64,000 nucleotides of DNA from Phycisphaerales bacterium (GCA_014238205.1 JABABM010000004.1:1-64000); one strand, 5' to 3'. Counted from the stretch's first letter, positions 1,672 through 39,428 are shown. Translations and numbers: made by a program. The notes: generated from the letters alone by a model not told the origin.

Positions 1672-3651
1672 TCAGGGGCGGTTGCCGCCACCACCGGGTC
1701 CACCACCACCACCACCGGGTCCACCACCACCACCACCGGGTCCACCGCCGCCGCCAGGACCGCCGCCTCTGCCACCATCAGGTCCACCGCCGCCAGGTCC
1801 GCCACCTCTGCCGCCGCCAGGTCCACCGCCTCTGCCACCTCGACCGCCATCACTACCGAAGCGTTCACGCATTGCTCGAATCATTGCCATGCGTTCTTCC
1901 TCGTTGAGTTCCCCATCGCCGTCGGCGTCATATTGAGACATCATGGCTTCACGATCAAAATCGCCGGGCGGCCTGTCGCCACGAGCACGATCACGCCCGC
2001 CCCCGCCTCCAAACTCATCGAACAGGTCGTCTCCAAGCAGTGACTGGAGCCGGTCAAGGTACCGGCTGTCCAGTTCCCTTCGTTCATCCTCGACCTCGTC
2101 CATGGGATCCTCTGAATCGTCTTCACCACGACGGGAACCCCAGGGCATCTCACCATCGACTCGTCGCTCCAGGAACTCGAGTTCCCTCGGCGATTCGTGC
2201 TCACGAACGAGCATGAGGTGGCGAGTAAGCAGGGGCATTGATTCGCTCTCGTATCCAACTTCAAGCGAATCTATCGCGGCCAGCATCTCTTCGGCCAGCA
2301 ACTCGGATTCACGGGCTCGATCTATCAAGCGAGTGACGCGTGACTGTCGGTAAACCTGGGGATACCCCTCACGAAGTGCTTCCTTCCGAAAAGTGCCAGC
2401 TGTCTCTTCAGGCATGACGGATGTCAGAGCTTCGATGTACTGGTCATTGACGTTGCGAACCTGCTTCTGGTACTCAAGACGACGCTTGAGCAGTTGCAGT
2501 GCCTTGTCGTAGTCACTCAACCTCATTGAACTGTAGACATCGAGTTCGACGCTGTTGTCGTACTGTTGGCGGGCGACAAGTGCCGAGTCGAGATCGACCA
2601 CGTACGTGGAAAGCAGCTCGTCCACGGAGTTCCGGGTATCAGGGTCGAAACCGGGTCGTTCATCCCTGAGAATATTCGTCAGGTCGACCGACTCACCATC
2701 AAGTCGACCACGACGGAGTATTTTTTCCCTTCGAAGCGTTTGATGAAGTTCCGGCAGACGCTCAATCTGGCTCTCAATGAGCGTGGTTTCCAACTCCGAC
2801 GCAAGCGTGAGGCCCAGTTCATTCTTCCTGTTGACGAACGTCTGGACAATGCTGATGTTCAGTGCTGTCAATTCCCGCATCTCATCGGACTGCTCGAAAG
2901 CTTCACGAGCAGCGAAGTAACTCTGGTGCCCCTCGGACATGGCCTCCCGGAGATCGTCCTGATCCTGCTCAAGTTGAGCAATCATCTTCTCATCAACAGC
3001 TTCACCAGCCTCCTGCGAAGACCTGAGCTGTGCCATCTCGCGACGAATTTCCCGGCCTTCATTACGAATATCTCGGAACCGCTGCCGCATTTCATCCCGC
3101 TCGGCATTCATCTCATCCGTAGGCTCTGGCCTCGTTGCTTCGACATCCTCAAGTGAGAGATCCATCATTTCGACGGCATCCCTGAATGACGCGTCATAGT
3201 CCTCGAAGATCAACTCGATGATGGGCTCCTGGTCCTCGTTGATCTGGAGTATTTCCGCAACGTACTGCAGGTCGGACACCATGTAGTCGGGCATCTTGAT
3301 GTAGCGAAGTACATCACCGCCTCGGCCAAATCCTCGGCCCCCACCCCTGTTGTTGCCCCTGTTGTTGCCCCTGTCACGGGCCTGTTCTTCTCGCTGGCCT
3401 TCATCTCCTTGCCGAGCTTGATCCTTCATGTGTTGACCCAAGGCGGCACGTTCCTCCTGGCTGAGTTTTCCATCGCCGTCGGTGTCGAACTGATTGAGCA
3501 AGGCCTCTCGTTCGCTGGGATTAAAGGGATCCGTACCCGGGCGAGGGGCGTCTTGGCCAAGGGCTGTATTCAAACTGATCTGGCAGGTAAGAAGCACCAA
3601 GGTCATGCCAAGAACATTCGAGCAGGTAGATTTGAGTCTGTGTATCCGCAT
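1672..3651 (-). CDS. Secreted EF-hand protein with long helical core and Gly-rich tail
   Basis: 659 residues from an ATG at 3651 preceded by GGAGAG. An N-terminal signal peptide (about 1-33, ending near LGQ) is followed by a canonical EF-hand loop DTDGDGKLSQEE (56-67). A Gly/Arg/Asn-rich spacer comes next, then about 430 residues of charged, mostly helical sequence rich in Glu, Arg and Leu. A second EF-hand DADGDGELNEEE lies at 575-586, and the last 60 residues are a GGGPGGG repeat. The protein is therefore exported and likely binds calcium at both ends of a helical rod. It is divergent from an ECF sigma/anti-sigma/EF-hand operon starting at 3834, with only 182 nt between the two starts, which suggests common control. 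I recognise no enzyme family; a structural or metal-sensing envelope role is inference. Confidence 0.8.
   Translation of the reverse strand: MRIHRLKSTCSNVLGMTLVLLTCQISLNTALGQDAPRPGTDPFNPSEREALLNQFDTDGDGKLSQEERAALGQHMKDQARQGDEGQREEQARDRGNNRGNNRGGGRGFGRGGDVLRYIKMPDYMVSDLQYVAEILQINEDQEPIIELIFEDYDASFRDAVEMMDLSLEDVEATRPEPTDEMNAERDEMRQRFRDIRNEGREIRREMAQLRSSQEAGEAVDEKMIAQLEQDQDDLREAMSEGHQSYFAAREAFEQSDEMRELTALNISIVQTFVNRKNELGLTLASELETTLIESQIERLPELHQTLRREKILRRGRLDGESVDLTNILRDERPGFDPDTRNSVDELLSTYVVDLDSALVARQQYDNSVELDVYSSMRLSDYDKALQLLKRRLEYQKQVRNVNDQYIEALTSVMPEETAGTFRKEALREGYPQVYRQSRVTRLIDRARESELLAEEMLAAIDSLEVGYESESMPLLTRHLMLVREHESPRELEFLERRVDGEMPWGSRRGEDDSEDPMDEVEDERRELDSRYLDRLQSLLGDDLFDEFGGGGGRDRARGDRPPGDFDREAMMSQYDADGDGELNEEERMAMIRAMRERFGSDGGRGGRGGGPGGGRGGGPGGGGPDGGRGGGPGGGGGPGGGGGGPGGGGGGPGGGGNRP
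1675..1850. repeat. Low-complexity GGTCCACC-type repeat coding for a Gly-Pro tail
   Basis: On the + strand this is a run of CACC and GGTCC units. On the minus strand it encodes the GGGPGGG/GGRGGG tail of the EF-hand protein. Unit length is irregular and in multiples of three, as expected for slippage that keeps the coding frame. Confidence 0.85.
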
Positions 3652-3833
3652 CTTTTACTCTCCGGGGAACGAGTGAGCCTCTGGTCGCCATGGAACCGGA
3701 TTCCAAGTGCCGAGGGACACATGGTTGTACGCTTACGTACCACACAGCATCCCCGATGATGGCTGGAAAGGCCAGCCCAAGGCCCCTGAGTAGGCCTGGA
3801 ACCCCTTGCAGTTGCGATCCCGAGCCCCCACAC

Positions 3834-4397
3834 ATGGACATAGATCTACAAGCCTGTGCAGCCGGGGACCAGGAGGCATGGAGCAATTTCGTGACTGAAA
3901 CGGCAGGACTTGTCCTTGCTGCTGTACGGAGGACTGCCGGGAAGCAGCTTGACCACCCACAGATGCCGGATATCGATGATGTGGTTCAGTCGATCTATGT
4001 TCGACTTCTTGCCAACAACGGCCGATTGATGCTGAAATACGACCCTGAGCGGTCGGCCATATCAACCTGGCTGACACTCATCGCCAGGAGCGTGACGATT
4101 GATGTTCTGAGGCGGAAACGGCTTCCACAGGTGCCCCTGGTTGATCATGACCGACCAGAACAGTCACAGGGATCACCTGTGCATGGCAGTGGATCCTTGG
4201 AATCTGTTGCCCCAATGCAGGTCCTCACAGGCCGCCAGCGACTTGTTTTGACCCTTCTCTTCGAGGATGGACGCACGGTTGCAGAAGCAGCCCGTTTCCT
4301 CGGTGTGGGAGCACAAACAGTAAGAAGTACCAAGCACAAGGCCCTGGAACGCCTCAGAAAGCACCTGGGTCTTGAGAACAAGGCAGATGATGAGTGA
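3834..4397 (+). CDS. ECF-family RNA polymerase sigma factor
   Basis: 187 residues from the ATG at 3834 (MDIDLQACAAGDQEAW). Region 2 is visible as the helix around IDDVVQSIYVRLL and the segment STWLTLIARSVTIDVLRRKR; region 4 is RQRLVLTLLFEDGRTVAEAARFLGV followed by TVRSTKHKALERLRKHL. The frame is open upstream to 3690, but those residues are Pro/Cys-rich and outside the family, so the later start is used. It is followed after 65 nt by a membrane anti-sigma-like gene and then a CpxP/Spy-like EF-hand gene, the usual arrangement of an envelope-responsive ECF unit. The divergent neighbour is another EF-hand protein and a likely target. Confidence 0.9.
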   Translation: MDIDLQACAAGDQEAWSNFVTETAGLVLAAVRRTAGKQLDHPQMPDIDDVVQSIYVRLLANNGRLMLKYDPERSAISTWLTLIARSVTIDVLRRKRLPQVPLVDHDRPEQSQGSPVHGSGSLESVAPMQVLTGRQRLVLTLLFEDGRTVAEAARFLGVGAQTVRSTKHKALERLRKHLGLENKADDE

Positions 4398-4462
4398 ACC
4401 AGTCCTGATCCCGGGGACGCTCCCCGGGGATGACACGTATAACGTGGGGCATTGAGGAATCC

Positions 4463-4987
4463 ATGAAGAAACAAGATCAACATCCCGACAACGACTCGTT
4501 CGTCTATCAACTCTGGACCGAATCACTGTCCCCGGGCAGCGACCCCATCGATGTTGACGACCTTGCAGCCTGGTTCGAGGGTACGCTCGACGATGAGGCA
4601 CGAGACTTGATCGAAGCACGTCTCGCCCTCGACCCTGCAGGCCGAGAGCTTGTCGCGGAACGAGAAGTTCCTCCAACCCTCGAGGCCTCGGCCGAGTTGA
4701 TCGACAGGCTGGTATCGCTTGGAACCCGTGAAGAGCATCTCTCGTTCGAGTCCCATGCCCGCCAAGCCACGCATCGAGCCTGGTGGACCTCCTCCGGCAT
4801 TGCAGCAGCCGTTGCACTTGCCGCCCTGGGTTTCTGGACCGGCCAGCTTGCTGCGACGGATGCCGATCGGCTCGAACAACAGTTCCTTGCTGCAGCGACA
4901 TTCAATGTCTTTGATGGTTCCATCGATACGAACGCATTTGATGAAGCCATCGTGGAGATGACTCGAAACAACGAGGTGTCGCGATGA
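4463..4987 (+). CDS. Putative membrane anti-sigma factor
   Basis: 174 residues from the ATG at 4463 (GAGG eight nt upstream). The N-terminal 105 residues are soluble and acidic and include DDLAAWFEGTLDDEARDLIEARLALDPAGRE split by no gap; that 'xxW-E-G-x-L' plus 'DP' arrangement is typical of the cytoplasmic sigma-binding part of anti-sigma factors that lack a zinc motif. A single transmembrane helix follows at about 107-128 (TSSGIAAAVALAALGFW), leaving about 45 residues outside. It lies between an ECF sigma gene and an EF-hand CpxP-like gene and overlaps the latter by 4 nt. The assignment rests on position, topology and this weak motif; no conserved HxxxCxxC zinc site is present. Confidence 0.7.
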   Translation: MKKQDQHPDNDSFVYQLWTESLSPGSDPIDVDDLAAWFEGTLDDEARDLIEARLALDPAGRELVAEREVPPTLEASAELIDRLVSLGTREEHLSFESHARQATHRAWWTSSGIAAAVALAALGFWTGQLAATDADRLEQQFLAAATFNVFDGSIDTNAFDEAIVEMTRNNEVSR

Positions 4988-5748
4988 TGAAACGACCAAT
5001 CCTCCATATCCTGCTCGGCTGCTCGATCGTCTTCAACGTGTTCTTCATTTTCGGAGCAATGCAGTGGCGACCTCTTGATGAACAACGCCCGGGACATGCC
5101 GGCATGATCAACCGGGTCGTTGACACCATGAATCTGGATGAAGAACAGCGAGCTGCCTTCAAGGCCATGCGTGATGATTTCGAAGCTGAGACCGCTGTCA
5201 TCTCGGGACAGATCAACGAACTGGAAACAGCCATTGCCGCGCTTCTTGCCAGTGAAGATCCCGACCTGGAACAGGTTGATACCCTCGTCCAGCAGAAGAC
5301 GGCCCTCCGCAACGAACGTCGCAGGGCAGGCTCCGAACGATTCGAGAGCTTCCTCGCAATGCTGAATCCCGAGCAGCGCCATGAACTTGGCCGCCGCATG
5401 GAACAGCATCGACCCGAACGAAGACGTGATGACCGGCAACGTGTCCTCGACCGATTTGATCAGAACGGGAATGGCATGCTGGATCCCGAGGAGAAACGTG
5501 AAGCCGATGCATTCCTGGAGCAGCGACGCGCCGAGCGGGAAAGACCAATGGATGAATCACTCTTCAACCGCTTCGATGTCGACGAAGACGGGTTCCTCTC
5601 CCCTGGCGAAGCTGCTGAACTGGGGGCATTTCTCCAATCAGATCGACCAAGGCGGGGAGGGCCGGCTCGCGGCCCACGTTCACCGAGTGGTCCCCGTGGA
5701 CCACGACAACCCGGCGACGATGGACGGCAGCCCGAGGAAACTCCCTGA
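4984..5748 (+). CDS. CpxP/Spy-like periplasmic protein with two EF-hands
   Basis: 254 residues. An N-terminal hydrophobic segment (about 5-27) anchors or exports it. Residues 40-145 form a helical hairpin region rich in Glu, Arg and Gln (NLDEEQRAAFKAMRDDF, LNPEQRHELGRRMEQHR), resembling the heavy-metal-resistance/CpxP/CnrX-type periplasmic sensor fold. Two EF-hand loops follow: DQNGNGMLDPEE (159-170) and DVDEDGFLSPGE (198-209), then a Pro/Gly/Arg-rich tail. It overlaps the anti-sigma gene by ATGA and is the third gene of the sigma operon. In CnrYXH-like systems such a protein senses metal and controls the anti-sigma factor; here the added EF-hands suggest calcium sensing, which is inference. 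Confidence 0.75.
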   Translation: MMKRPILHILLGCSIVFNVFFIFGAMQWRPLDEQRPGHAGMINRVVDTMNLDEEQRAAFKAMRDDFEAETAVISGQINELETAIAALLASEDPDLEQVDTLVQQKTALRNERRRAGSERFESFLAMLNPEQRHELGRRMEQHRPERRRDDRQRVLDRFDQNGNGMLDPEEKREADAFLEQRRAERERPMDESLFNRFDVDEDGFLSPGEAAELGAFLQSDRPRRGGPARGPRSPSGPRGPRQPGDDGRQPEETP

Positions 5749-5784: not shown

Positions 5785-6582
5785 CTAGGGCGACTTGGTG
5801 TTCTCATAGAGTTCCATCGCCTCGGGCATGAGTTCACGGAACTCCTCGATTCGATTCTCAGGGTTGGGGTGCGTGGATAGAAACTCTGGCGGTCGCTTTT
5901 CCTGGGCCGCTGCCATGCGTTCCCAGACGACAATGGCCTCGCGAGGGTCGTAGCCTGCCTCGGCCATCAGGAACAATCCCAGTTCGTCTGCCTCCCCTTC
6001 GTGGAGGCGACTGAATGGCAATGCAACTCCATACTGGCCTCCCACCCCCATGACCTGCATGGCAATCTCCCTCGTCCTGGAATCCGACCCACCGAGCACT
6101 GCTCCTCCGGCGGTAGCCACACCATTCATGACAAGAGCATGGCTCAACTGCTCTGCACTGTGATGTGCGAGGACATGTGCAATCTCGTGAGCAACAACGA
6201 CTGCAAGACCTGCTTCGGTCTCCGTGATCGGGAGAATACCGGTATACACCGCGACCTTGCCCCCGGGAGCTGCCCATGCATTGGCAACTTCGTTGTCATC
6301 GATAAGTACGAATGTCCAGTCATACTCTTCTGCATTGCTCGAGGGATACAGAATTTCTGCGGCCTCGACAATCCGATTCCCGATACGGCGAACCATCTTG
6401 GCCTGCTTGCCAGTATCGATGATCGTCGCCCCGGCTGTTGCTTCCTGGAAGGCCTCCTCTCCAAGTTCCCTCTCCTGCTCGGTGGAAACAATATTCATCT
6501 GTGCTCGACCCGTCCCGGCAACGGTTGAACACCCAGCGAGCAGCAGGAGGAGCATTGGCAGCAACAGGTGTATTCGCTTCAT
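5785..6582 (-). CDS. M48-family metallopeptidase, lipoprotein
   Basis: 265 residues from the ATG at 6582. A lipoprotein signal ends in LLLAGC (Cys18). The zinc site HEIAH (132-136) is followed by LAHHSAEQ and a downstream EGEADELG segment that supplies the third ligand, with C-terminal LSTHPNPENRIEEF, all typical of M48 peptidases of the BepA/LoiP type. Such proteins act in the periplasm on misfolded outer-membrane proteins. The frame is open upstream, but only this start gives a signal peptide. It lies 26 nt downstream of the HAD gene on the same strand, so it may be read from the same transcript; the preceding sigma operon is convergent and ends 36 nt away. Confidence 0.93.
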   Translation of the reverse strand: MKRIHLLLPMLLLLLAGCSTVAGTGRAQMNIVSTEQERELGEEAFQEATAGATIIDTGKQAKMVRRIGNRIVEAAEILYPSSNAEEYDWTFVLIDDNEVANAWAAPGGKVAVYTGILPITETEAGLAVVVAHEIAHVLAHHSAEQLSHALVMNGVATAGGAVLGGSDSRTREIAMQVMGVGGQYGVALPFSRLHEGEADELGLFLMAEAGYDPREAIVVWERMAAAQEKRPPEFLSTHPNPENRIEEFRELMPEAMELYENTKSP

Positions 6583-6608
6583 GCTCAAAGCATAGCCCGG
6601 TCTCAGAA

Positions 6609-7277
6609 TCAGGATGTCCTTTGAATGAAGAGGCAAGGCAAATCCTGGAGATCTTGAAGCACATGGGTGTGAGGGCATTGTCGAAGTTCCTCCTCCGTGT
6701 AGGACCCCGTTGCAACGCCGATGTTCCATCCACAGCCGGCGACATCGCCCATCTCCAGATCCCTGGGCGTATCCCCGACACAGGCGACACGATTGGGATC
6801 CAGCTGCCCTGCGCGGTGCATCGCCTCGATGACAAGGTCAGGTGATGGGCGACCCCGTTCAACCTCGTCAGAACCAACAATGACATCCATCGACCAGTTT
6901 CCTGCTGCACGCAGCTGCTCCGCGGTACTCGCATTGAACCCAGTCACCAGCCCGATGAGGCAGCCTGCTGATTGAAGTTCCTCGAAGACGCGATCGACCT
7001 CGGGAAAGATGCTTGGAGGAGATTCCAAGATTAATGCCTCAAGGGTCGAGGCGTATTCCCTGGACAATGCATCGGCCCCGGATTCATCTCGATCGGCCCG
7101 AGTGAGCAGTTCCGAGAAGACCTCGTTCTTCTTGCACCCGTAGCGGCTACGCAGCCAGGTCGGGTCACATGGAAGCGCTGCCTCGGCAAGTACGGAACGA
7201 TAGGCCTTGAGCGTCAAACCCGTATCTGCAACAAGGGTGCCTGCGATGTCGAAGAGCACCAGCAAGGGCATGTTCAT
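6609..7277 (-). CDS. Phosphonatase-like HAD hydrolase
   Basis: 222 residues of a HAD-superfamily phosphohydrolase. Motif I is LFDIAGTLV with nucleophile Asp10 and Ala12, a DxAGT form characteristic of phosphonatase-like (PhnX-like) members rather than the common DxDGT. The cap contains GCKKNEVFSELL, with lysines that could correspond to the Schiff-base Lys of true phosphonoacetaldehyde hydrolase; I cannot confirm the alignment. Motif II is GLVTGF, then GRPSPD and motif IV VGDTPRDLEMGDVAG. It overlaps the sialidase-like gene by 4 nt (ATGA), so both are co-translated with the FAD dehydrogenase upstream. No phosphonate transport or transaminase gene is nearby, so phosphonate use is not established. 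Confidence 0.88.
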   Translation of the reverse strand: MNMPLLVLFDIAGTLVADTGLTLKAYRSVLAEAALPCDPTWLRSRYGCKKNEVFSELLTRADRDESGADALSREYASTLEALILESPPSIFPEVDRVFEELQSAGCLIGLVTGFNASTAEQLRAAGNWSMDVIVGSDEVERGRPSPDLVIEAMHRAGQLDPNRVACVGDTPRDLEMGDVAGCGWNIGVATGSYTEEELRQCPHTHVLQDLQDLPCLFIQRTS

Positions 7278-8437
7278 GGCGTGGCCTTCGACGGACTGGA
7301 TTCGAGCAACGCCGAGTGCATCGCATCAAGTTCCTCCATCGTGAAGCGCATGCTGAGAATCCAGGGCGATTCCCCCTCGGTCCAGTGACCATAGGTCACC
7401 GCAACGATCGTGCCATCGGGCAGCAGTTCCAGAGCCGGGTAGGCACAATCCCATCGATGGTGATTGTCCTTCAATCGAACCCGGTACTGTCCTTCCCCCC
7501 CATGGATGATGTCATCCCATGAACCAACCCAACCAACCCAATCCCCCTGTGTCGGGCTCTCGTGGGTGGTATCACGAAACGAAATGAAATACCGCTCTTC
7601 AGGCAATGCAATGACCTGATGTCGATCGCCGGTCAAGGCCCCGGGCAGTTCAACCGGATCAGACCAGGTCCGCCCCTCGTCCCTGGAATAGATGATGAAA
7701 CTGTTGAGTACCCTCGAGTTCTCCCGCAGCAGCAAGGCGATCGTCAAGCCATCCGGCGAACGGATCAAGCCCCCCTCGCAGAGGTGTGCCGTCTCATGGG
7801 TCGTGATGACCTCCGGTTCCGTCCACGCCACTCCTCCGTCAGTCGAGGTGATGGCATAGACATTGAAGACACCCGTTGCTTTCCCCGAGTCATCGATGAA
7901 GCGACCATCATCGTGAAAGAAACACATGGCGCGACCATCGTCGAACTGGATGCAGTCCGACATGACCACGATGCCCCCGTAATCACCGATCGGTGCAAGC
8001 GGTGACCAGGTACTTCCTTCATCCGACGATGCAGCCATGCGAATCGGGTACAACCCCGTGAACATGAGGATTCTCTTTGAACCGTCGGGCATGCCTGTTT
8101 CATAGAGCGTCGGCACTTCCACGCTCGTGGCCCAGTTTGCCGGGGTTTCAAGGCGTTCCCCCCAGGTCCGCCCTCCATCCTCGCTTCGCTTCATCACGAT
8201 CGCACCTCGGCCATGCCCCTTCGGATACACGATGATGATGGTCTTTCCATCATCGAGCAGGTGCGTGCTGGGATGTCCCAGGTACTGCCCCGGTTCCCGG
8301 TCGACAACGACATGACGATCTAGGTCCTCATCGAGATCAATGACTGGAATGTCGTACCCACGTGACGGCTTTACGGGTTCATCCTGCACCGGGACAGGAG
8401 ACTGCAGCAGAAGGACCATGATGATGTGAAGGATCAT
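7274..8437 (-). CDS. Secreted sialidase-like (BNR/Asp-box) protein
   Basis: 387 residues with an N-terminal signal (about 1-19). Four Asp-box repeats mark a six-bladed propeller: SEDGGRTWGE, SSDEGSTWSP, STDGGVAWTE and SRDEGRTWSD. Other family segments are IVMKRSEDGG and the C-terminal RWDCAYPALELLPDGTIVAV (arginine and acidic residues of the active site region). Planctomycetes carry many such proteins; only some cleave sialic acid, so the glycoside substrate is left open. It overlaps both neighbours by 4 nt, between an FAD/Fe-S dehydrogenase and a phosphonatase-like HAD hydrolase, implying coupled expression of the three. Confidence 0.85.
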   Translation of the reverse strand: MILHIIMVLLLQSPVPVQDEPVKPSRGYDIPVIDLDEDLDRHVVVDREPGQYLGHPSTHLLDDGKTIIIVYPKGHGRGAIVMKRSEDGGRTWGERLETPANWATSVEVPTLYETGMPDGSKRILMFTGLYPIRMAASSDEGSTWSPLAPIGDYGGIVVMSDCIQFDDGRAMCFFHDDGRFIDDSGKATGVFNVYAITSTDGGVAWTEPEVITTHETAHLCEGGLIRSPDGLTIALLLRENSRVLNSFIIYSRDEGRTWSDPVELPGALTGDRHQVIALPEERYFISFRDTTHESPTQGDWVGWVGSWDDIIHGGEGQYRVRLKDNHHRWDCAYPALELLPDGTIVAVTYGHWTEGESPWILSMRFTMEELDAMHSALLESSPSKATP

Positions 8438-11388
8438 GTGGCCTTCTCATCATCACCTGCGAGCCTGTCGGCAGCAAGTACCACGGGGTGCTCCGCGTTT
8501 CGATCAAAAACGTCGTGGACCTGGTGGCGACAGCTCGTTCCATTCGCACACAACCCGGCATGTGGAGATTCCTGCAATGGCTCGCCAAGGGACTGCTCGG
8601 CGATCTTGGTCGAGAGCGAATGATGTTCCCTGGCATACCCGAATGAACCAGCCATGCCGCAACACCCGGAATCGAGGAGGCGAGCCCCCGGATAGCCACA
8701 CCTGTGCAGGAACCGTTCACTGGACCCGGCACGATGCTTCTGGTGACAATGAACGTGCAACAACACCTCTTCTTCAACAGGGTCGAACATGGGCCGATTC
8801 GGGTGCTCGTCCCAGGATGATTCAAGGAACTCCTCGATGCTCGATGCCAGCGAGGCGATCTTCAGAGCGTCTGTACGATCAAGCGTCGTGACCAGTTCGA
8901 CCCATTCCTGCTGGAGTGACGTGATGCAACTGGGTTCTGCGCCGACGATCGCCACGGGGGCATGGGCCTCGATGGCGGAAAGGAGACAACGTGCTGAATG
9001 CTCGATCGTCCTCCTTGCGTCTTCCAGCATGCCGCTGCTGCACTGGGTACGACCACAACATCCCATGCCATCGGGAATGACAACCTTGTAGCCAAACGCC
9101 TCGAGAAGTCGAACGGCTGCTCGTCCGATGCGAGGCTCGTTGTAGGACGTGAAGCAATCCGGCAGGAGAAGAACTGCAGGGCCGGCGATCCCGGTGCGAT
9201 GCCGCATCCAGGACTGCAGGGACCGATCAAACCGGGGAAGACTTCGGCCCGGGGCCATGCCCATGACACGCTTGATCAGTCCTGCGACGGGTGGGAGCGA
9301 GCACAGTGCATTGGCAATCGGTGCGATCGAAGATCCGATCCGGTTGATACGACGCACATTCCCGATGAGCCGCTGGCGCAGGGGAACGCGACCGAGCAAC
9401 TTCCAACGCTGCGCCTCGTATTCCGCCTTGAGCTTCGTCATGTCGACGTGGCTCGGGCATTCATATCGACACGCCTTGCAGCCAAGGCAGAGATCCAGCG
9501 TCTCCATCGTCTCCAGGTCGTTCCAATCCGGGGCATCTCCATCACCAAACTGGCCTGTCATCGCAAGTCGAAGCGCGTTGCCACGGCCTCGTGTTGAATG
9601 CCGCTCATCACGAGTCGCCCTGTAGGAGGGGCACATGGCACCACCGGTGGTCGCCCTGCACAGACCATTGCCGTTGCAGGCCGCTGCAGCTCGAAGCAGG
9701 CCGCGATGTTCACTCCAGTCGTAGTAGGTCCCGGCTTCCAGCGATGTCGGCAGAGGCTGTCCACCAGGCGCCTGTCGCCAGTCCATCATCGGATCCGGAT
9801 CCGCATCGACCATTCCGGGATTGAACAGCCCCGATGGATCGAAGATCTTCTTGATGCGCCTGAACCCTTCGAAGAGTTCCGAACCATAGAAGTCACGAAC
9901 CAGCCAACCCCGGGATCGACCATCACCATGTTCACCTGAAATGCTGCCGCCAAATCGCTTCACAAGCCCGATCGCCTCGGTTGCCACTGCCTCGAGAATC
10001 TCTCGGTCTTCGTCCGTTCCAAGGTCCAGGCGTGGCCTGATGTGAAGCAGCCCGACGCTGGCATGGGCATACCAGGTCGCTTGGCGTCCGTGTCGCTTGA
10101 GCATTGCCGAGAACTCCGACTGGAATGCCGCCAGGTGCTCGGCAGGAACGGCGCAATCCTCGAGCATCGGAACCGGCTTCCTGTCCTCGATGGTTCCACT
10201 CATCAGGGACAGGCTGACCTTCCGGAGTTGCCAGAGCCTCTCCTGCATCCCCGGCTCGAGGTGGTGTCCGATTGCCGCCCCAGGAACACAGGCACGCAGG
10301 GATGCAAACTGTTCAGCAACCGCCTCTTCATCATCACCGAAGAACTCCACGTACAGGACGGCCCCGGGAAGTTCTCCGTCGATGTGGGGCAGGTCATCGA
10401 GCAGTTCCATGTAGGCCTGATGCGCACTGGCCGCCTCGAGAATCGTCCCATCAAGCAATTCGACTGCCGAAGGCGACGTTCCGAGAATGCTGTTCAGTGA
10501 CTCCAGCGCATCCTCGACATCCGTGAAACCAAGCACCGCAAGTCCACGGGATGCCGGTGGCGTGACGAGTCCGAGTTGCGCACCTGTCACGAGGCCGAGC
10601 GTGCCCTCCGAACCGGCGACAAGGCGAGCGAGGTTCACCGCATCGTGGGTCCCCGGGGTCGACTCACGCACCTGGGCAAGGATGACGTCGAGCTTGTACC
10701 CACCGACATTCCGTCTCACCTTCGGAAAGTTCGCATCGATTGCATCTTCAAGCTCGAGGACAACCTCGACGACCTGCCGCGTCAGGTCTGCGACGAACTC
10801 GTCGGTTTCCGATGCCCCCCTGACCAGGTGGACACATCGCCCATCGGCAAGCACCATGTCCACTGCAAGGAGGTGTTCATCCGTCATCCCATAGACCAGT
10901 GAACGAAGTCCGGCTGAACAGTTTGCAATCATGCCGCCGAGTGTTGCGTGTGTCGAGGTTGACACGTCCGGTCCGAAGGTCAACCCGTGGGCTGCCGTTG
11001 CACGGACAAGGTCATCAAGCACGACTCCCGGCTCTACGGAAACGGTGCGATTGGAAACATCAACACCCCCGATGGAGCAAAGGTACGCCGAGCAGTCGAT
11101 GACAACAGCCTGGTTGGTCGCCTGACCGGCAAGTGAAGTTCCTCCACCTCGAGGCAGCACGGGTACGCCATGTTCCCCGCAGACACGAACCGCAGCCTGT
11201 GCCGCCGAAACCGTACTCGGTACAACGACACCGAGAGGTTCCACCTGGTACATGCTTGCATCCGTCGAATACAGCAGGCGATCGTGCTGTGAACTGCGGA
11301 CTTCAAGATCCTCGATGGAATGCAATGCGGCAACGACACCTTCTGGAAGTGCTGAAGAAGCAACCTGAGTCAGCGGGATGCGTGGCAT
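8434..11388 (-). CDS. FAD-linked oxidase / Fe-S dehydrogenase fusion (YdiJ/GlcD-GlcF type)
   Basis: 984 residues from the ATG at 11388 (MPRIPLTQVASSALPEG). The N-terminal half is an FAD-binding oxidase of the D-lactate/2-hydroxyacid type: STDASMYQVEPLGVVVPS, VLPRGGGTSLAGQ, and GGSISGEHGDGRSRGWL before the C-terminal cap. The second half holds the Fe-S part: CNGNGLCRATTGGAMCPS and CLGCKACRYECPSHVDMTK, the two 4Fe-4S clusters. Two CCG domains follow (MGCCGRTQCSSG, SGCCGMAGSFGY) that in GlcF-like proteins pass electrons onward. It probably oxidises a D-2-hydroxyacid in the cytoplasm, donating electrons to quinone or cytochrome. An upstream TTG at 11418 is possible but lacks family support. The stop overlaps the sialidase-like start by 4 nt. 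Confidence 0.92.
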   Translation of the reverse strand: MPRIPLTQVASSALPEGVVAALHSIEDLEVRSSQHDRLLYSTDASMYQVEPLGVVVPSTVSAAQAAVRVCGEHGVPVLPRGGGTSLAGQATNQAVVIDCSAYLCSIGGVDVSNRTVSVEPGVVLDDLVRATAAHGLTFGPDVSTSTHATLGGMIANCSAGLRSLVYGMTDEHLLAVDMVLADGRCVHLVRGASETDEFVADLTRQVVEVVLELEDAIDANFPKVRRNVGGYKLDVILAQVRESTPGTHDAVNLARLVAGSEGTLGLVTGAQLGLVTPPASRGLAVLGFTDVEDALESLNSILGTSPSAVELLDGTILEAASAHQAYMELLDDLPHIDGELPGAVLYVEFFGDDEEAVAEQFASLRACVPGAAIGHHLEPGMQERLWQLRKVSLSLMSGTIEDRKPVPMLEDCAVPAEHLAAFQSEFSAMLKRHGRQATWYAHASVGLLHIRPRLDLGTDEDREILEAVATEAIGLVKRFGGSISGEHGDGRSRGWLVRDFYGSELFEGFRRIKKIFDPSGLFNPGMVDADPDPMMDWRQAPGGQPLPTSLEAGTYYDWSEHRGLLRAAAACNGNGLCRATTGGAMCPSYRATRDERHSTRGRGNALRLAMTGQFGDGDAPDWNDLETMETLDLCLGCKACRYECPSHVDMTKLKAEYEAQRWKLLGRVPLRQRLIGNVRRINRIGSSIAPIANALCSLPPVAGLIKRVMGMAPGRSLPRFDRSLQSWMRHRTGIAGPAVLLLPDCFTSYNEPRIGRAAVRLLEAFGYKVVIPDGMGCCGRTQCSSGMLEDARRTIEHSARCLLSAIEAHAPVAIVGAEPSCITSLQQEWVELVTTLDRTDALKIASLASSIEEFLESSWDEHPNRPMFDPVEEEVLLHVHCHQKHRAGSSERFLHRCGYPGARLLDSGCCGMAGSFGYAREHHSLSTKIAEQSLGEPLQESPHAGLCANGTSCRHQVHDVFDRNAEHPVVLAADRLAGDDEKAT

Positions 11389-38465: not shown

Positions 38466-39428
38466 GTGCTGCTTGAAATCAAACATCATCTTCACTTCAC
38501 CTATGACGAGTTCATCCGGGAATCTCACATGGAGATCCGCGTGGAACCTCGATCCCAGGCCGGGCAGATAGTCCATGATTTCCGCCTGACGCTCGGCCCT
38601 TCGACCATGGTGACCCGGTTCGAAGACTGGCTTGGCAATGCAGTTCACTGGTTCTCGATCACCGACTACCACGAACGAATCGAAATGATCGCGCAATCGG
38701 TGGTCGACACCACGACACCGACTTCAAATGCCCTTGAAATCAAGGATCCCCTTCCAACCGGGGCATCGGGAGTGGATCTCTACGACTTCACGCTGTTTAC
38801 AGGGCCTGTCCTGTACAGCGATGCCCTCGATTCCCTGCATGCTGATCTTGATCTTGCCAATGCCGCCAGTCTCGGTGACTGCATTCGTCGGCTTGGTGAC
38901 GGACTTGCCGAGCGGTTCGAGTACAGGAAGAACATCACGACCTTTGATTCATCCACCGACTACTTCATCGAAACCGGGGCTGGGGTCTGCCAGGATTTCG
39001 CGCATCTTGGACTGGCGCTGCTTCGTCGCAGTGGCATCCCGACCAGGTACGTCAGCGGCTACCTGCATGTAGAGACACAGGACATAGAACCATCACAGAG
39101 CCATGCGTGGATCGAGTTTTTCTCCCCGAGCAACGGCTGGACGGCATTTGATCCAACACACAACAGGGTGCCGGATGAATGCTATGTCATCGTGGGATAC
39201 GGACGAACGTACAACGACGTCCCCCCCAACCAGGGCATCTACTCGGGAGCAGCGGAAGAACATCTCGATGCTCATGTCGTCACGACGCCTGTCATGGAAC
39301 GGGAAAACCCCCGCCTCCTTGAAGAAGGTCACCATATTGATCTTCCCGTCTACAGGGAACTGCCCGGCCGCGACGGTGCCCGCGAACTGACTGCCGGCGA
39401 GGCTGCAGCGTCACAACAACAGCAATGA
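38466..39428 (+). CDS. Transglutaminase-like cysteine protease of the ATP-grasp cassette
   Basis: 320 residues from a GTG at 38466. The N-terminal beta domain (HLHFTYDEFIRESHMEIR) is the bacterial transglutaminase-like N-domain, and the catalytic triad is clear: Cys175 in GAGVCQDFAH, His213 in SHAWIEFF and Asp229 in FDPTHN. Without a signal peptide it is cytoplasmic. In cassettes of this kind it could hydrolyse or transfer an isopeptide bond in the compound made by the ATP-grasp. The C-terminal tail is Ala/Gln-rich and ends in four glutamines. It lies 20 nt after the alpha-E gene. Confidence 0.92.
   Translation: MLLEIKHHLHFTYDEFIRESHMEIRVEPRSQAGQIVHDFRLTLGPSTMVTRFEDWLGNAVHWFSITDYHERIEMIAQSVVDTTTPTSNALEIKDPLPTGASGVDLYDFTLFTGPVLYSDALDSLHADLDLANAASLGDCIRRLGDGLAERFEYRKNITTFDSSTDYFIETGAGVCQDFAHLGLALLRRSGIPTRYVSGYLHVETQDIEPSQSHAWIEFFSPSNGWTAFDPTHNRVPDECYVIVGYGRTYNDVPPNQGIYSGAAEEHLDAHVVTTPVMERENPRLLEEGHHIDLPVYRELPGRDGARELTAGEAAASQQQQ

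Follow-up and report, generated by a model that had tools for sequence, protein, structure and literature searches.

How might a bacterium link EF-hand proteins outside its cytoplasm to a transcriptional switch? To our knowledge, the route from extracytoplasmic calcium sensing to transcription is largely open in bacteria. The question is raised here by positions 1672-5748 of a 64,000-nt stretch of DNA from a Phycisphaerales bacterium (GCA_014238205.1 JABABM010000004.1:1-64000; hereafter the window), which is part of a 2.4-Mb genome assembly. A sequence-only reading of the window had described four open reading frames (ORFs) on the two sides of a 182-nt gap (3652-3833), and all four are found where it placed them. 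On one side lies the gene of the rod, a secreted helical protein of 659 aa that has two EF-hand loops (1672..3651, minus strand). On the other, all on the plus strand, lie the genes of a 187-aa extracytoplasmic function (ECF) sigma factor (3834..4397), a 174-aa membrane anti-sigma factor (4463..4987) and a 254-aa membrane-anchored periplasmic sensor (4984..5748), the last two overlapping by 4 nt. Our analysis indicates that these genes probably constitute an autoregulated ECF circuit, in which a CnrX/Spy-like sensor is equipped with EF-hands and the outputs are secreted EF-hand and redox proteins. New here are the bipartite promoter GGGA(T/C)-N16-18-CGTA and an EF-hand version of a known kind of ECF system. 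At the level of sequence the circuit, the predicted promoter and the putative outputs are well supported; calcium as the input is attractive but unproven.

Conservation and identity of the module

The sequence-only reading had named conservation of the neighbourhood beforehand as a test of its proposal, the main one, and the neighbourhood is indeed conserved. A profile of the sensor N-terminal domain found matches in 40 of the 181 genomes surveyed from the bacterium's family; the strong matches number 36 and come from 13 genera. The order sigma factor, anti-sigma factor, sensor is kept in essentially all strong loci that are not cut by a contig end. A rod gene adjoins the module in 29 genomes: 25 of these rods are divergent from the sigma gene, and four lie downstream of the sensor gene. 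The divergent gene in loci L024, L025 and L156-L158 encodes instead a secreted redoxin with EF-hands (Pfam was run for L024 and L025). In the closest relatives (e.g. L018 and L020) synteny reaches past the module; farther off, the module is retained among flanking genes that are mostly different. The relatives are metagenome-assembled genomes of Phycisphaerales and other Planctomycetota, several of them marine by name.

The sigma factor matches Pfam PF04542 and PF04545 (sigma70_r2 and sigma70_r4; 8e-8 and 7e-13) and TIGR02937 above cut-offs, and contains sigma70 regions 2 and 4 only, the make-up of an ECF sigma factor. The anti-sigma factor of the window gave no Pfam family above cut-off and a weak match to NCBIfam 'antisigma' (4e-4). 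Four of its orthologues match zf-HC2 (PF13490; 9e-6 to 6e-9) above cut-off, and the family is therefore placed in class I (zf-HC2/ASDI). In the window copy the Hx3Cx2C zinc ligands are lost, as is common among class I anti-sigma domains (PMC7406223). A single membrane helix is predicted (4781-4849), which, together with the class I orthologues, agrees with the one-helix anti-sigma-like protein seen in the sequence-only reading. Most of the copies inspected carry a short hydrophobic motif (AATFNVF or EMSFGVF) after this helix; in the window it reads AATFNVFDG (4892-4918, plus strand), and it is a plausible contact for the sensor.

The sensor matches Metal_resist (PF13801; 1e-13), LTXXQ (PF07813; 2e-8) and EF-hands above cut-off. 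A predicted N-terminal membrane helix is followed by a Metal_resist/LTXXQ hairpin, two EF-hand loops and a Pro/Arg-rich tail; the helix and the Metal_resist domain together are what characterizes the membrane-anchored periplasmic sensor of CnrYXH-type systems. Both loops (residues 159-170, DQNGNGMLDPEE, 5458..5493; residues 198-209, DVDEDGFLSPGE, 5575..5610; plus strand) are canonical for the EF-hand family, with 12 residues and ligands at positions 1, 3, 5 and 12. Among the sensors of the 36 strong genomes, 33 have two canonical loops and 34 at least one; outside those 34, the sensor of G010 is truly without loops and another is truncated where its contig ends. In the alignment the columns of the loop ligands rank among the most conserved, although the rest of the protein diverges to about 30% identity. 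Because the neighbourhood is kept in 13 genera, and both sensor loops are kept at this level of divergence, the observation goes beyond chance.

Downstream of the sensor gene, and convergent with it, is a gene for an M48-type metallopeptidase-like protein (5785..6729, minus strand), which adjoins the module in 17 of the module loci examined. We set it aside as a circuit component, since no promoter of the sigma factor was seen at it and it is absent from many loci; it is probably outside the circuit. Two other neighbours are recorded here. In two genera a conserved secreted family with a KVGQKMHVRG motif and no clear Pfam match adjoins the module (L026:3385-4575 and L027:2788-3873). Divergent from a distant module is a 947-aa protein (L164:5321-8161) with beta-propeller, cytochrome-peroxidase-like and calcium-type repeat matches, which suggests another secreted protein of redox/calcium type.

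A bipartite promoter and its predicted targets

An unbiased count of gapped words upstream of the sigma genes returned GGGAT-N-CGTA in 26 of 29 regions, with a maximum of five in shuffled sequences. Of 35 regions, 30 have GGGAT-N16-18-CGTA, with a spacer of mostly 17 nt, in the orientation of the divergent gene (300 shuffles: mean 0.09, maximum 2), and GGGA(T/C)-N16-18-CGTA is found at the junction of the sigma and anti-sigma genes, directed toward the latter, in 35/38 loci (shuffled mean 0.16, maximum 2); such shuffles overstate the significance, as related loci are not independent. The window contains four matches, three of them in the cluster and the fourth, at 39198, inside a transglutaminase-like ORF. 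The three are a predicted promoter toward the rod gene (3728..3753, minus strand, GGGAT-N17-CGTA), one toward the sigma gene (3714..3739, plus strand, GGGAC-N17-CGTA) and one toward the anti-sigma and sensor genes (4414..4439, plus strand, GGGAC-N17-CGTA). The first two overlap head to head around the inverted repeat GTACG-CTTA-CGTAC. A scan for sigma-70 promoters and terminators gave nothing above shuffles. The sigma factor presumably recognises promoters with the bipartite motif, and a conserved putative promoter of this kind at its own operon and at its predicted targets is a mark of an ECF sigma factor. Elsewhere, one and the same promoter sequence stands before different genes in two genera (G013:C17:9884-9910 and L156-L158), which may represent shared assembly contamination.

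The predicted ECF-type promoter in front of the rod gene upholds the suggestion, made in the sequence-only reading, that the rod is a likely target. Apart from its two EF-hands (loop 1, residues 56-67, DTDGDGKLSQEE, 3451..3486; loop 2, residues 575-586, DADGDGELNEEE, 1894..1929; minus strand) the rod matches nothing in Pfam, and it ends in a Gly-rich tail. Foldseek found no convincing match for its model, and in a profile search with the rods only the EF-hand part was matched, to calmodulins. Members of the rod family occur in 178 of the 181 family genomes, with weaker members across the order, and of the rods inspected at sites other than the module, most have no sigma gene as a neighbour. 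Because the family is so wide, a rod alone is no marker of the system; its position and promoter are. In one further locus (L136, G466:C12, 5071-9174) the gene divergent from a rod encodes another ECF sigma factor (7199-7750) and is followed by a gene (7711-9174) for an anti-sigma-like protein with weak EF-hand matches; this is apparently a second, independent pairing of an ECF system with EF-hands.

The motif also marks genes at a distance from the module. It precedes all four rods that are not adjacent to an intact module but have a module elsewhere in the genome (L135 and L137-L139; as L137 keeps a sigma fragment, it is probably a module divided by a contig end), and none of 15 rods in genomes without a close module, two of which have a weak, distant sensor match. 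Whole-genome scans gave many matches inside ORFs, and only intergenic, conserved matches were kept. These led to the gene of a secreted PSCyt1 (planctomycete cytochrome c) protein (8e-13; G000:C77:25653-26735, minus strand) on another contig than the module. Full-length orthologues of this protein, with a conserved C-terminal part, exist in 21 genomes, all of which have the module. The exact motif lies 79-149 nt upstream in 21/21 of these orthologues versus 0/9 other PSCyt1 genes (shuffled mean 0.23, maximum 3). Beyond these, the motif was seen in isolated cases, one or two each: ahead of a secreted redoxin gene in two genomes of one genus, and ahead of a DUF1800 gene in another. The EF-hand rod, the EF-hand redoxin and PSCyt1 are the first candidate targets for a multi-phylum group of ECF/anti-sigma/Metal_resist systems, which now also has a promoter consensus.

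These distributions bear on the simplest alternative, that an ordinary ECF operon happens to stand next to an unrelated EF-hand gene. The near-universal occurrence of the rod family, mostly away from the sigma factor, speaks for such a coincidence, but the adjacency recurs in 29 genomes of many genera, and the rod promoter is present only where a close module exists. We consider coincidence extremely improbable and reject it on the conserved adjacency, the promoter distribution and the PSCyt1 promoters. Sequence and conservation together establish the gene identities, the neighbourhood, the conservation of the loops and the promoter set.

The input of the sensor

In the autoregulated circuit that we favour, the single-pass class I anti-sigma factor would hold the sigma factor inactive, and the sensor, with its two EF-hand loops, would read the short periplasmic tail of the anti-sigma factor. 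The state of the sensor would then decide the release of the sigma factor; most likely this state is the occupancy of the loops by Ca2+ or another divalent ion, or else the binding of unfolded envelope proteins. Free sigma factor would act at GGGA(T/C)-N17-CGTA promoters to transcribe the anti-sigma and sensor genes (as feedback), the divergent gene of the secreted EF-hand rod (of the EF-hand redoxin in some relatives), the unlinked PSCyt1 gene and, in part, its own gene. CnrX and CnrY offer an analogy for a periplasmic protein that reports to an anti-sigma factor, with subsequent release of the sigma factor (PMC4598750). The contact between sigma and anti-sigma factors, that between anti-sigma factor and sensor, and the direction of the response are what we infer.

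The AlphaFold model of the sensor, made with 35 sequences (predicted local distance difference test score 82), has a helical hairpin at residues 38-145. This hairpin matches ZraP (3lay, Z 10.9), Spy (3o39, Z 10.1) and CnrX (4wwf, Z 9.9), as well as CpxP and NccX, and the Z-scores against the Spy/CpxP/ZraP structures 3lay, 3o39, 3itf and 3qzc are 9.6-10.9; for helical proteins a Z below about 13 is not strong alone, so that values of 9-11 are suggestive and not decisive. The sequence profile of the sensor also matches CpxP, ZraP and Spy, weakly. With the LTXXQ match and the two loops, these fold matches confirm the earlier description of a CpxP/Spy-like periplasmic protein carrying two EF-hands. 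No periplasmic column of the 35-sequence alignment has His, Met or Cys in at least half of the rows, and ligands of CnrX type are thus absent.

The same features may be read in three ways. If the EF-hand occupancy directly controls the class I anti-sigma factor, the module would be a dedicated periplasmic calcium switch, and its secreted EF-hand proteins and surface cytochrome would close a calcium loop in the planctomycete envelope; we put this forward tentatively, as a possibility somewhat short of an even chance. An envelope folding-stress sensor is a comparably uncertain proposition: the hairpin would bind unfolded proteins, the EF-hands, without a role in signalling, would do no more than stabilise the C-terminal domain in sea water rich in calcium, and the outputs would serve envelope and redox upkeep. 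Fold matches to Spy and CpxP as good as those to CnrX, the LTXXQ family match, a hairpin lacking conserved His/Met/Cys metal ligands, the M48 peptidase adjoining many loci and out-group sensors devoid of EF-hands all agree with it. It accounts less well for loop ligand columns that remain among the best kept in so divergent a protein, or for the recurrence of EF-hands in the targets (rod and redoxin). It is unlikely that the sensor, like CnrX, detects divalent heavy metals or the redox state, with a metal that is not calcium in its loops and with PSCyt1, redoxin and rod as protection from oxidative or metal damage. The Metal_resist match, the CnrX/NccX fold matches and the redox-type outputs speak for such a sensor, but CnrX-type ligands are not conserved, no metal efflux genes were found among the promoters examined, and the canonical DxDGDG loops are of calcium type.

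Several observations weigh against the autoregulated circuit with an EF-hand sensor, beside the non-independence of the loci. Few relatives keep the motif in the direction of the sigma gene itself (5/35 strict, 12/35 relaxed), and the putative contact between sensor and anti-sigma factor is drawn from two sources only, the overlap of their genes and analogy. Since EF-hands are common in the secreted proteins of planctomycetes, the role of the loops could be structural. The loops are moreover dispensable for the core, because one in-family sensor and nearly all out-group sensors are without them.

Origin of the module and comparison with known systems

The alignment of sigma factors, used as a query, retrieved relatives from Alphaproteobacteria (Rhodospirillales and Rhizobium), other Planctomycetota and Aminicenantes; a search of genome contigs with the single sigma protein and one of plasmids with the sigma factor gave no match. 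The three genes recur in nearly all out-group loci, where the sensor is short and has no EF-hand; the motif occurs near the junction in several (e.g. L268, L284, L288 and L290) and, in L295, immediately before the anti-sigma gene. In the single complete Aminicenantes locus the anti-sigma and sensor genes are about 3 kb away from the sigma gene; the EF-hand-free three-gene core is probably present in Aminicenantes too. Other families of the class also gave sensor relatives (E-values of 1e-6 to 1e-15). A tree was built from 69 sigma factors, and its deep forks are weak. In it the sigma factors from Alphaproteobacteria fall into a single group without EF-hands, and the EF-hand labels are concentrated at Phycisphaerales loci (six changes versus 23 in shuffles). 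Read most simply, an older ECF/anti-sigma/Metal_resist unit gained the EF-hands; the rooting does not fix the direction of this change.

The sequence-only reading had likened the locus to CnrYXH-type metal-sensing units. With CnrYXH and NccYXH of Cupriavidus metallidurans the module does share an ECF sigma factor, a single-pass anti-sigma factor and a membrane-anchored Metal_resist periplasmic sensor, the predicted fold of which matches both CnrX and NccX, and EF-hands have been added to this sensor as proposed. The likeness ends there: CnrY is a class II anti-sigma factor (PMC7406223), whereas that of the window is class I and zf-HC2-like; the gene order is sigma factor, anti-sigma factor, sensor; the sensor is without conserved His/Met ligands and has two additional EF-hand loops; and the predicted targets are secreted EF-hand and redox proteins, with no efflux pump. 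Spy, CpxP and ZraP have the same LTXXQ helical-hairpin fold, but they are soluble and act with two-component systems or alone, in contrast to the membrane-anchored, ECF-coupled sensor with EF-hands.

That no system of this form had been described proved partly correct. We found no EF-hand version of the ECF/anti-sigma/sensor unit in the open literature, although subscription papers may hold one; the EF-hand-free core exists in other phyla and has appeared in print. The rpoE8 operon of Azospirillum brasilense is an autoregulated tricistronic operon of an ECF sigma factor, a hypothetical protein and a 'periplasmic heavy metal sensor', with a function reported as unknown (PMC12826043). By its published description it has the same three-gene make-up, which our alphaproteobacterial loci also have; the alphaproteobacterial sensor relatives found here, unlike that of the window, are without EF-hands.

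The CaBP-SigV system of Caulobacter vibrioides comprises a periplasmic EF-hand protein and an ECF sigma factor that activates its gene; responses to calcium limitation and acid are reported for it (PMC13171946). CaBP differs from the sensor of the window in being 133 aa long and without a CnrX/Spy domain, and the system has separate promoters and another gene layout. No membrane link is known in it, and that 2026 study ends by proposing an unidentified component (PMC13171946); in the module described here a sensor, an anti-sigma factor, a sigma factor, a promoter and several outputs can all be named from sequence. For an uncharacterised switch it is rare that both the outputs and the likely input can be read from the genome, as they can in these uncultured marine planctomycetes. 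With all components named, four synthetic genes and a single reporter, placed in a laboratory host, would allow a direct test of the proposed circuit.

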